A stretch of DNA of 34,808 nt from Oscillospiraceae bacterium (GTDB taxonomy: Bacteria; Bacillota; Clostridia; Oscillospirales; CAG-272), in NCBI GenBank assembly GCA_015064245.1, contig SVSQ01000014.1, positions 1-34,808 of the forward strand. The letters run 5' to 3'. How positions within the stretch are numbered: position 1 is the first letter of the stretch; each line of letters opens with the position of its first letter. The position numbers and the translations under genes are program-made. The notes beneath the pieces were generated by a model, which saw only the letters and a program-made list of their open reading frames with translations, had not been told where the DNA came from and searched no databases. This document shows, in pieces, positions 3,853-22,048 of the stretch.

Positions 3853-5787
3853 TTAACTGTTTTGCTGAGCTTTCTTTATCTCTTCCGCTTCGGAAGCGCG
3901 GGCGTTGACCTCGGCGGCGTCCTTGTAGGTGTCTACAACGGTCTTCAGCGCCGCTCTGATAGTCTCGGCGCTGCCGGAGGTTTCAGCCTCGTCGATAGCC
4001 TTCTTGAGAACGGCGAGCTTTTCCTCGACCTGCTGTCTTGTGAGGGGCTTGTCCTTCTCAATGAATATCTTCTTGTTTTCGGTCTTGGTAAGAAGCTCCT
4101 TCTTGATCAGAAGCTCCTCGAAAAGCTTTTCGCCCGGACGGAGACCGATCTCCTTGATCTCGATGTCCTTGCCCGGCTCAAGTCCCGAAAGCTTGATCAT
4201 ATTGATCGCAAGATCGTGGATCTTTACGGGATTGCCCATGTCAAGCACGAACAGCTCTCCCTTTTTCGCCATAGCTCCCGCCTGCATTACCAGACTGCTG
4301 GCTTCGGGAATGGTCATAAAGTATCTGATTATGCCCTTGTCCGTGAGGGTTATTGGTCCGCCCTCGGCGATCTGCGCCTTGAAGAGGGGGATCACGGAGC
4401 CGTTTGAGCCGAGTACGTTTCCGAAACGTACCGCCACGAATTCCGTATCGCCGTCGTTACGGCACTGAACTATCATCTCGCACAGACGCTTGGACGCGCC
4501 CATGACGTTCGTTGGGTTGACCGCTTTATCCGTTGATATGAGAATGAACTTCTTGACGCCGTACCTCTCAGCCGCGCAAGCAGTATTGTACGTGCCGAAA
4601 ACGTTGTTTTTGATAGCCTCGGCAGCGCTTGACTCCATGAGCGGAACGTGCTTGTGAGCCGCCGCGTGGAAGACTATGTCGGGACGGTGCGCGGAGAATA
4701 CCATGTCAAGGCGGCGGACGTCTCTTACCGAGCCTATCTCCACCACCAGATTCAGCTCGCCCTGATATTTTCTGCCGAGCTCCTGCTGAATGTCGTAGGC
4801 GTTGTTTTCGTAGATGTCGAAGATGACCAGCTTCGCGGGCTTCAGCGCGGCAAGCTGACGGCACAGCTCGCTTCCGATAGATCCGCCGCCGCCCGTTACG
4901 AGAACGGTCTTACCGCGGTAACAGCTTTCCGCTTCCTCGCTGAAAGCGTTTATCTGGTCTCTGAACAAAAGGTCTTCTATCTTGAATTCTCTGATGACGC
5001 GCTTTTCGGATTTCGCTTCGCGGGTTTTGACGCCCGACGTCATATCGCTTACGGGAGCGTCGTACAGCTTGGGCGTGTAGCCGATGGCGCTGAAAAATTC
5101 GAACAGCTCCTTCGCTTTTTCGCTGCTCAGCGCGGGGATCGCCACGAACACCTCGTCCACCTGAAGGTTTTTAAGAACGGCTTTCGTCTTGTCGCTTAAG
5201 GGGTAGACGTTCATGCCCAGAACGCGTTTGCCGTTTTTCTGCGTATCCTTATCCATAAAGCATACGGGAGTGTATTTCGAGTCTTTTCTGCAAAGCAGAT
5301 CCTCTGCCAGCAGAACGCCCAGCTGTCCCGCGCCCACGATTGCTGCCTTGAGGCTCTTTTCGCGGTTGCCGACGCTGATGTTCTTCTGACGGTAGATGTA
5401 CTGATAAACGAGTCTTGCCAGAATGGACGCGATGTCGAACGCCATCATAACGAGCCCCGTGTGCCAGACTCCTACGCTTCGCCCGATAAGACCGCAGGGG
5501 ATCACCGCTATAACGCCCGCCGCCACGTCCGCAAGGACGAGGCGTATGGAGACGCTGATCTGAACGTATCTGAGAATGTAGCTGTATATGCCGAATATGA
5601 ATCGGGACAGCATACATACCGTAAAGATGATCGCCGTATTGATAAGGAACAGCGAGGGCTCTGAGTAAACCAGCATTTTTCCGAAAATATTTGAAAACCA
5701 GAGGAAAAATAAGCTTATGATCGCAAAAATGCCAACGTCGTAAACGCACAGCATCAGCTTGCGGCTGCCGAGTTTTTTAAGTATCAT
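3853..5787 (-). CDS. Membrane-anchored polysaccharide biosynthesis protein, NDP-sugar 4,6-dehydratase (CapD/PglF/WbpM-like)
   Basis: N-terminal TM segments, CoA-binding-like domain, SDR motif VLVTGGGGSIGSELCRQL, HAAAHKHVPLMESSAAEAIKNN, RFGNVLGSNGSVIPLF. Confidence 0.9.
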   Translation of the reverse strand: MILKKLGSRKLMLCVYDVGIFAIISLFFLWFSNIFGKMLVYSEPSLFLINTAIIFTVCMLSRFIFGIYSYILRYVQISVSIRLVLADVAAGVIAVIPCGLIGRSVGVWHTGLVMMAFDIASILARLVYQYIYRQKNISVGNREKSLKAAIVGAGQLGVLLAEDLLCRKDSKYTPVCFMDKDTQKNGKRVLGMNVYPLSDKTKAVLKNLQVDEVFVAIPALSSEKAKELFEFFSAIGYTPKLYDAPVSDMTSGVKTREAKSEKRVIREFKIEDLLFRDQINAFSEEAESCYRGKTVLVTGGGGSIGSELCRQLAALKPAKLVIFDIYENNAYDIQQELGRKYQGELNLVVEIGSVRDVRRLDMVFSAHRPDIVFHAAAHKHVPLMESSAAEAIKNNVFGTYNTACAAERYGVKKFILISTDKAVNPTNVMGASKRLCEMIVQCRNDGDTEFVAVRFGNVLGSNGSVIPLFKAQIAEGGPITLTDKGIIRYFMTIPEASSLVMQAGAMAKKGELFVLDMGNPVKIHDLAINMIKLSGLEPGKDIEIKEIGLRPGEKLFEELLIKKELLTKTENKKIFIEKDKPLTRQQVEEKLAVLKKAIDEAETSGSAETIRAALKTVVDTYKDAAEVNARASEAEEIKKAQQNS

Positions 5788-13448: not shown

Positions 13449-13550
13449 ATGATTAGTTTCCTTGCGGAGTGTAGTTTGGTTGATTTCTTATTTTTGCATA
13501 AGATGGTTATTAGTGTAAATTTTGATATTTTTCTTGAATTATTCTTTTCG

Positions 13551-13814
13551 CTCTGTCACACTATATGGATGATAATTTCAAATTTTGATTTGTAGGTGTG
13601 TTTGCAAACTTTTTTATACAAATCTCATTAATGTTTGTAGGGACCGGCGTCCTCGACGGTCCGCAAAATCCACAAAGCACACCCGTCTTTAGCAAATAAT
13701 TTGTTTCTCTGCAGGCAGATGCCTGCCGGACCGTCGAGGACGCCGGTCCCTACATTTATAAGAGGAAATTCACGCATAAACTCCAATTTATCAATTATTT
13801 AATGTGACATAGCC
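13551..13814. mobile_element. MITE-like element copy 2, inverted relative to copy 1, carrying a REPIN
   Basis: Ends CTCTGTCACACTATATGGATGAT and ATTTAATGTGACATAGCCAT match the copy 1 ends in reverse order. Confidence 0.75.
13637..13753. repeat. REPIN: inverted pair of GTAG-type REPs
   Basis: GTAGGGACCGGCGTCCTCGACGGTCCG (13637-13663) and its exact reverse complement (13727-13753). Confidence 0.9.
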
Positions 13815-13896
13815 ATTCTTTTTATGTAGTTGTTCATTTCTTTCCTCTTTCTTTCCGAAGAAAGAAGAAATGAAAAGATGCATTCTTCGAATGCTC

Positions 13897-15420: not shown

Positions 15421-15446
15421 CGGGGCGTCGAGGCGCCGCCCCCTAC
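15421..15446 (-). repeat. Solo GTAG-type REP (GGCGCC class)
   Basis: CGGGGCGTCGAGGCGCCGCCCCCTAC; reverse complement begins GTAGGGGGCGG. Confidence 0.65.
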
Positions 15447-16898: not shown

Positions 16899-16968
16899 GT
16901 AGGGGAGGGGCTTGCTCCTCCCGAAAGAAACAAATCCATAAACCGGGAGGACCAAGGCCCTCCCCTAC
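16899..16968. repeat. REPIN, GTAGGGGAGGG class
   Basis: GTAGGGGAGGGGCTTGCTCCTCCCG and CGGGAGGACCAAGGCCCTCCCCTAC in inverted orientation. Confidence 0.85.
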
Positions 16969-18944: not shown

Positions 18945-18968
18945 CGGACGACCAATGGTCGCCCCTAC
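18945..18968 (-). repeat. Solo GTAG-type REP (GACCATTGGTC class)
   Basis: CGGACGACCAATGGTCGCCCCTAC; reverse complement GTAGGGGCGACCATTGGTCGTCCG. Confidence 0.75.
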
Positions 18969-20650: not shown

Positions 20651-20760
20651 GTAGGGGAGGGGCTTGCTCCTCCCGGCAGGCATCTCCTGCGGAGAAGCAA
20701 GTTTTACGTAAGACGAGCGTTTTATGGAGATTTTGCGGGAGGACCAAGGCCCTCCCCTAC
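20651..20760. repeat. REPIN, GTAGGGGAGGG class
   Basis: GTAGGGGAGGGGCTTGCTCCTCCCG (20651-20675) and CGGGAGGACCAAGGCCCTCCCCTAC (20736-20760). Confidence 0.9.
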
Positions 20761-21398: not shown

Positions 21399-21980
21399 TT
21401 ATTCTTCTGTGTACAGTTTATCGTAGAGCCACCGAACGGGGTTTTCATAAATATATTGCATATGCTCCTCATAATCCTGGCGGTTACGAATGATATGATC
21501 ATTGGAGCGATATTGCCATATATTTGTTCCATATTCTTTGTTGCAAAATCTTTTGAATGTAGACACGAACCGTGACGGAATGGAATTCTGTACTGTAGGG
21601 ACCGGCGTCCTCGACGGTCCGTCTGTGACCGGCGTCCTCGCCGGTCCGTTTTCAATGCCTTTTACCCACAGCATGATATGGATATGATTGGGCATAATTA
21701 CGTAACTCTCGACAGATAGGTCATCGTAAAAGTCATTCAATTGATTGATGTATTTATCAGCGATCTGTCCGTATTTTGTCAATTCGATTTGCGGACCGTC
21801 GAGGACGCCGATCCCTACAACGCGAGAGAGAACACAACGTCTTTCTTTCGTGCATATCGTGAGAAATACGGCTTGGTTTCGATTATAGTCCGCACTCTTC
21901 AACCGAGTGTTCTTGCGATTTTTCAGTTCATCCATTTCCATCACCCGTTTCATTATATCACAAATCGGCAGAGGAAACAA
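21399..21980 (-). CDS. REP-associated tyrosine transposase (RAYT; Y1/IS200-like)
   Basis: FLTICTKERRCVLS, VIMPNHIHIMLWVKG (HUH motif), YRSNDHIIRNRQDYEEHMQYIYENPVRW (catalytic-Tyr helix); start may be an internal Met. Confidence 0.92.
   Translation of the reverse strand: MFPLPICDIMKRVMEMDELKNRKNTRLKSADYNRNQAVFLTICTKERRCVLSRVVGIGVLDGPQIELTKYGQIADKYINQLNDFYDDLSVESYVIMPNHIHIMLWVKGIENGPARTPVTDGPSRTPVPTVQNSIPSRFVSTFKRFCNKEYGTNIWQYRSNDHIIRNRQDYEEHMQYIYENPVRWLYDKLYTEE
21595..21648 (+). repeat. Two tandem 27-nt REP units inside the RAYT ORF
   Basis: GTAGGGACCGGCGTCCTCGACGGTCCG + TCTGTGACCGGCGTCCTCGCCGGTCCG; first unit identical to the REP at 13637. Confidence 0.92.
21792..21818 (-). repeat. Inverted 27-nt REP inside the RAYT ORF
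   Basis: CGGACCGTCGAGGACGCCGATCCCTAC, one mismatch to the reverse complement of the 21595 unit. Confidence 0.92.
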
Positions 21981-22048
21981 TCACTCTGCCGAAGTTTTCG
22001 TGCCGATAGTTTTCTCTTAAGAACAGCAGAAAAGTCACCAAAAGTATC

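Follow-up and report, generated by a model that had tools for sequence, protein, structure and literature searches.

The stretch of DNA analysed here (34,808 nucleotides in all, hereafter the window) carries on its reverse strand an open reading frame for a REP-associated tyrosine transposase (RAYT; Table 1). This assignment, already made in the initial annotation, is borne out by agreement among a protein family profile, a structural relative and the HUH and tyrosine motifs. The NCBIfam profile NF047646 matches with E=1e-11 and a score of 44.9 bits, a figure under its curated cut-off of 80, and a Pfam scan of the protein gave no match. E. coli TnpA_REP (PDB code 4er8) is matched by sequence (E=8e-7) and is also the best PDB fold match to an AlphaFold model of the protein (E=1.5e-7). 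The protein thus combines the HUH motif and a single catalytic Tyr in a Y---NP context with the TnpA_REP fold, as is characteristic of RAYT/TnpA_REP proteins. Its motifs (NHIH, WQ and YIYENP), its length of 178-193 residues and the REP at site 2 correspond to subclass 2.4 of TnpA_Y1, for which NH[IFV]H, WQ and YIxNNP-type motifs, a length of about 194 residues and a variable REP-derived insert between HuH and Y have been described (PMC6006769). In E. coli TnpA_REP it is the WQ...R region that reads the GTAG (PMC6006769). Since the TATAAT-like box lies downstream of the TTG at 21980, initiation at that codon is unlikely; translation probably starts from the ATG at 21941 or 21935, giving a protein of around 178 residues that begins MDELKNRK..., and the homologues begin with MDELKKRK.

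Table 1. Positions of the RAYT gene, its motifs, its REPs and an intergenic REPIN within the window.
Feature	Position	Strand	Remarks
RAYT open reading frame	21399..21980	-	193 residues if read from TTG
Conserved 5' block	21952..21992	-	Hairpin CGGCAGAG...CTCTGCCG (21965-21992) and TATAAT-like box (21952-21957), before the start codon; from alignment of RAYT loci
Site 1 in-gene REP, GTAGGGATCGGCGTCCTCGACGGTCCG	21792..21818	-	Encodes VGIGVLDGP; GTAG toward the 5' end of the gene
HUH motif, PNHIHIML	21669..21692	-	Between the two in-gene REPs; N83, H84 and H86 invariant in homologue alignment A1
Degenerate tandem unit adjoining the site 2 REP, TCTGTGACCGGCGTCCTCGCCGGTCCG	21622..21648	+	22/27 identical, foot GTGA not GTAG; encodes GPARTPVTD
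Site 2 in-gene REP, inverted, GTAGGGACCGGCGTCCTCGACGGTCCG on the + strand	21595..21621	+	Encodes ...SRTPVPT; GTAG toward the 3' end of the gene
WQ of the WQ...R region	21513..21518	-	From homologue alignment
Catalytic tyrosine motif, YIYENP (class 2 Y---NP)	21438..21455	-	Y161 and N165 invariant in alignment A1
Intergenic REPIN	13637..13753	.	Two perfect inverted copies of the REP of the RAYT, 63-nt loop, within a longer imperfect inverted repeat

Two GTAG-footed REPs lie in frame within the gene, inverted with respect to one another and placed on either side of the HUH motif. The 27-mer at site 2 recurs exactly at 13637-13663 and 13727-13753, as well as with a single mismatch, in inverted orientation, at site 1, and no chance matches to it were found in shuffled sequence. 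In these respects, and in the encoded peptides GPARTPVTD-GPSRTPVPT and VGIGVLDGPQ with the HUH motif between them, the initial annotation was accurate. Two of its statements hold in part. The second unit at site 2 is a tandem copy as claimed, but a degenerate one, sharing 22 of 27 bases and lacking the GTAG foot; and the claim that the repeats are multiples of three and stay open is true of the window's gene, whereas genes of the family also use REPs of 24 or 25 nt at the same sites. Tandem multiplication of REP units in 27-nt steps, the inner units losing their GTAG foot, is seen inside other RAYT genes too (L016, L059, L060). Both in-gene REPs are predicted to fold as strong hairpins with the GTAG foot unpaired. 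At the protein level the anticipated location of the encoded peptides in loops agrees with the AlphaFold model, in which site 1 forms a short loop and site 2 is disordered (pLDDT < 50). The arrangement of the pair, two inverted REPs with GTAG outward, is that of a REPIN; a REPIN is, however, a short non-coding mobile unit, and the segment between the in-gene REPs is coding. Its mobility is only hinted at, by a locus (L182) discussed below.

The repeat is also dispersed through the host genome, a point on which the initial annotation had made its reading depend. The 27-mer has 39 matches (20 + 19) with no more than 3 mismatches in the 2.15-Mb draft genome, compared to none for the reversed pattern in the same genome at the same tolerance, and an association of dispersed cognate GTAG-REPs with the RAYT extends over 98 genomes (see below). 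Many of the genomic copies form inverted pairs with GTAG outward, intergenic in the one pair looked at within the window. Among the dispersed REPINs with flanks that were inspected, most occupy the middle of a longer imperfect inverted repeat whose ends resemble GCTCTGTCACA... (L001, L006, L041-L043, L047, L049, L055, L056 and window positions 13500-13820), and their loops come in two versions, of 22 and 63 nt, each found in both orientations. The window contains further GTAG-REP types (16899-16968, 20651-20760, 15421-15446 and 18945-18968), among them inverted pairs of GTAGGGGAGGGGCTTGCTCCTCCCG, of which the host genome has 24 copies; the draft genome, 80% complete, yielded no RAYT of this type. 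Elsewhere, inverted REP pairs 620-920 bp apart enclose longer segments (L194 on contig 144 of G022, L195 and L196 on contigs 68 and 88 of G037, L197 and L198 in G057), and these are possibly composite REP-bounded units.

Homologues were drawn from 98 related genomes and from a scan of GTDB genomes, yielding 125 distinct RAYTs, mostly from Clostridia. A GTAG-footed hairpin was sought separately on each side of the HUH codons, each arm being found on its own in place of an earlier procedure that maximised complementarity between arms. In this set, recruited with a REP-bearing query and leaning to Clostridia, 102 of 125 genes bear the pair, 12 have site 2 only, 3 have site 1 only and 8 have neither; reversed-sequence controls gave 6 matches in 250. 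Every one of the 102 pairs has GTAG outward at both sites, as in a REPIN. At site 1 the GTA is a codon in 102/102, while the CTAC end at site 2 falls in either of two frames, in 87 and 15 genes respectively. The two arms are equal in length (27, 25 or 24 nt) in 101 of the 102 genes and have a mean within-gene identity of 0.955, a figure that may be compared to 0.573 when partners are permuted, with a maximum of 0.619 in 1000 trials. The carriers of both in-gene REPs include the cultured Gemmiger formicilis (L125). Beyond Clostridia the few loci include one from Spirochaetes with both sites (L163) and others with site 2 only, from Fulvivirga (L165), Planctomycetota (L170) and Histophilus (L178). 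The initial annotation had raised the possibility that homologues from genomes without REPs encode the same peptides. The REP-less homologue L108, 50% identical, does not: it has other residues in loops at the same places, and REPs of this clade number 1 in its genome, compared to 33, 16 and 53 in three genomes that bear them.

The alignment check proposed with the initial annotation thus places the REP segments at the same two sites and in the same orientation across most of the family. Its description of REPs within an open reading frame as unusual is apt when set against the textbook REPtron, yet the feature is common to these RAYT homologues. Its suggestion of a REP insertion tolerated as a protein linker proves too weak, the pair being ancestral, its sites, orientation and site 1 frame fixed and its hairpins conserved as DNA. 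The related idea of many independent, tolerated insertions into flexible loops might call on REPs that enter other genes in frame (PMC3733652) and on tandem units multiplied in frame at these very sites (L009, L016, L059, L060), but two sites, an orientation and a site 1 frame that are constant in 102 genes largely refute it, and we consider it most improbable. Because these properties are shared, common descent rather than repeated insertion accounts for them, and comparison of the sequences establishes the in-gene pair as an ancestral and retained architecture.

What is retained is the hairpin. Among 103 distinct arms, stem pairs 3 to 6 occur as G-C, C-G and A-T, and pairs 3 to 5 also as T-A, with few breaks. 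In ten instances a stem difference between the arms of a single gene is offset by a matching change within that hairpin (for example in L077, L103, L112 and L113), so that the conserved unit is each arm, and neither arm-to-arm pairing, which was rejected as a conserved structure on the same grounds, nor the encoded peptide. An earlier codon test had picked its gene pairs by REP identity and was therefore partly circular; it was replaced by an unconditioned test on 51 nearest-neighbour pairs picked by protein identity outside the arms. The arms proved more alike in nucleotides than the rest of the gene in 47 of these 51 pairs (0.864 against 0.669, Wilcoxon p=1.6e-9). Selection on the peptides themselves, for example as loops that read the REP, would suit the constant loop positions and the nearly invariant V-G and P-T anchors. 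These anchors are nevertheless simply what GTAG and CTAC encode, the peptides differ wholly between REP types, site 2 is read in the two frames noted above, and synonymous sites are conserved too; with site 2 disordered in the model and other loop residues in L108, we give a protein-level role very little credence. Each arm is, on the evidence of these alignments, conserved as a GTAG-footed hairpin at the DNA level.

The form of the hairpin varies with the RAYT. Clustering of the in-gene REPs gives about 25 types that differ between RAYT lineages, and on a RAYT tree built without the REP columns, many forks of which are unresolved, the type changes 39 times, compared to a mean of 81 and a minimum of 73 with shuffled labels. 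Where a genome has a RAYT of the matching type, at least 5 copies beyond the gene's own are present in 18 of 25 genome-type cases, and where it has none, in 16 of 465, these being counts of five REP types, the fifth entered by hand, in 98 genomes that are not fully independent. Even a two-base swap that preserves the stem, CCGG to CAGG, is sorted by genome in the manner of a REP type: the CAGG version has 0 copies in four genomes with a CCGG-type RAYT (G000, G024, G037 and G057) and 19 and 9 copies, respectively, in G036 and G008, which are of CAGG type. RAYTs that share a genome differ in REP type in 28 of 32 pairs; G036, for example, has two RAYTs (L014 and L061) with ACAGG and CGCGA REPs, each accompanied by a matching dispersed population. 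The correspondence has exceptions in both directions, with many REPs but no matching RAYT found in G017, G070 and G072 and for type 5 in G000, and RAYTs without dispersed copies in G044, G054 and G028. These sequences show the two arms, and with them the dispersed REPs of the genome, changing in step with the RAYT lineage.

Several loci bear marks of exchange. At L015, in G018, the site 1 REP has received one arm of a dispersed REPIN along with flanking sequence; L182 has a RAYT REP-to-REP segment inside an extended REPIN; and two sister copies of a RAYT 3' fragment that begins with the site 2 REP (L190 and L191) differ in REP version through a swap. The window's own genome, G000, contains a second RAYT copy (L058, contig 38, 8347-8721) that has lost the HUH segment between the REPs and remains open over 130 residues. 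A similar loss of the HUH segment is seen in G046 (L079). On the strength of the exchanges and the loss in L058, recombination at REPs is real, whether homologous or by the RAYT itself. The strongest rival to a functional reading builds on such events, holding that REPs once entered two tolerant loops and have since been kept like the genomic REPs by recombination or gene conversion only. The traces in L015, L182 and L190/L191 could indeed yield part of the matching without selection, and REPs of the matching type are abundant in the same genomes. Yet RAYTs sharing a genome mostly keep different types, and type follows RAYT clade; arms unlike each other still keep their own hairpins; and outward GTAG orientation and site 1 frame are constant. 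Weakened above all by the coexistence of types in one genome, this explanation seems to us unlikely.

A separate observation concerns the ends of the RAYT locus. The conserved 5' block has a counterpart directly after the RAYT stop codon, GGGCTTTGCC..GCCTTTGTAATACAAAGGC, and in several genomes the 5' and 3' blocks occur together without a RAYT as elements of some 250-350 nt, often directly before a start codon (L010, L199-L215, L218). Such an element has the appearance of a MITE-like or leader sequence, and the RAYT gene would be one of its versions. In L206 (G057 contig 153, about 4700-4960) an open stretch beginning MSLDYNEKNITPAKNLRKNATPQEKHLWYDF lies between the element ends; it is apparently the start of another gene, which we take to resemble DUF559-type proteins. 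An Rfam search of the RAYT loci and the dispersed end elements produced only one match, at chance level.

Genes of the IS200 family are controlled by leader hairpins, and the RAYT protein might similarly limit its synthesis by binding the REP hairpins of its own transcript, or of single-stranded DNA from the gene, the REPs then being operators inside the open reading frame. The strong predicted hairpins with an unpaired GTAG foot and the conserved 5' hairpin at the promoter of the gene are in keeping with autoregulation of this kind. Arm 2 is nevertheless present on the mRNA only as the complement, with a CTAC foot, and for other RAYTs the REP complement is inactive (PMC8266576), leaving autoregulation as the main role of the pair decidedly improbable.

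The interpretation that we favour, and hold to be reasonably probable on sequence grounds, is that the in-gene pair is the cognate substrate of the RAYT and co-evolves with the protein, the gene carrying its own substrate. The layout is shared by about 100 relatives, in each of which the hairpin takes its own form, and on this account the gene seems to bear a tag that specifies its target. The proposed mechanism begins from a RAYT of subclass 2.4 type with its cognate REPs set into the reading frame on either side of the HUH codons, inverted and oriented as in a REPIN. The protein would recognise these in-gene REPs, there being one active hairpin per DNA strand with GTAG at its 5' side, and this recognition would keep in-gene REPs, protein and dispersed REPs matched. 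Dispersed REPs might be seeded or refreshed from the gene, and the protein may also limit its own expression. Self-recognition, which the initial annotation had put forward together with autoregulation, would fit the RAYT-specific co-variation. A bolder version, which we advance only tentatively as a possible but doubtful extension, holds that the REP family has its master copy in the RAYT gene, which would be an 'inside-out' transposon with the recognition hairpin in the transposase frame; genomic REPs and REPINs would be seeded from it and exchanged with it. If true, the specificity of the protein and its substrate would be inherited as one unit.

One difficulty in working out how RAYTs recognise and spread REPs is that protein and substrate have to be matched through their proximity or abundance. 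Each of the present genes points to its own presumed substrate, which provides about 100 natural RAYT-REP pairs and some 25 hairpin types with which recognition might be decoded and co-evolution tested. The genes also present coding sequence under constraint at the level of the hairpin across proteins only about 40 to 60% identical.

Among known systems, the E. coli RayT REPtron (4er8; Nunvar et al. 2010, PMC2817692) shares the GTAG-REP hairpins, the HUH/Y1 fold and the WQ region. Two inverted REPs are said always to flank a RAYT gene (PMC2817692); the rayT gene of E. coli is followed by a GTAG hairpin, and its coding sequence contains none. The window's gene, by contrast, has the pair inside the coding sequence and is not flanked by its REPs, the nearest outside cognate REP in the window being about 7.6 kb away. 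Of 94 homologous loci, only 14 have a cognate REP outside the gene at a distance of up to about 1 kb, so that the usual REPtron is here inside out. REPINs (Bertels and Rainey 2011, PMC3116915) have the same inverted pair with GTAG outward, but the 'loop' of the present pair is coding sequence that includes the HUH motif. Palindromic repeats read through as peptide are known from the Rickettsia RPE and from intragenic REPs, which have been reported in frame in other genes (Di Nocera et al. 2013, PMC3733652); those lie in unrelated genes at varied sites, whereas the present ones are in the gene of their presumed own transposase, by descent. The closest relatives are TnpA_REP/RAYT genes of subclass 2.4 (PMC6006769; group 4 of Bertels), likewise class 2 RAYTs with NHIH, WQ, Y---NP and in-frame REPs. 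In-gene REPs are given as unique to that subclass, where they generally lie between HuH and Y on a peripheral extension (Quentin et al. 2018, PMC6006769); the genes examined here, of a Clostridia lineage, differ in having an inverted pair at two fixed sites, one of them before the HUH motif. The 2018 text describes neither a pair, nor conservation at the hairpin level, nor co-variation with dispersed REPs, and in the main text of the open-licence literature we found no description of an inverted pair around HUH, of compensated hairpins or of a cognate-REP label. What appears to be new, the in-frame REPs of the subclass having been known since 2018, is that the REPs form a conserved pair, that this pair is conserved at the level of the hairpin and that it co-varies with the RAYT.
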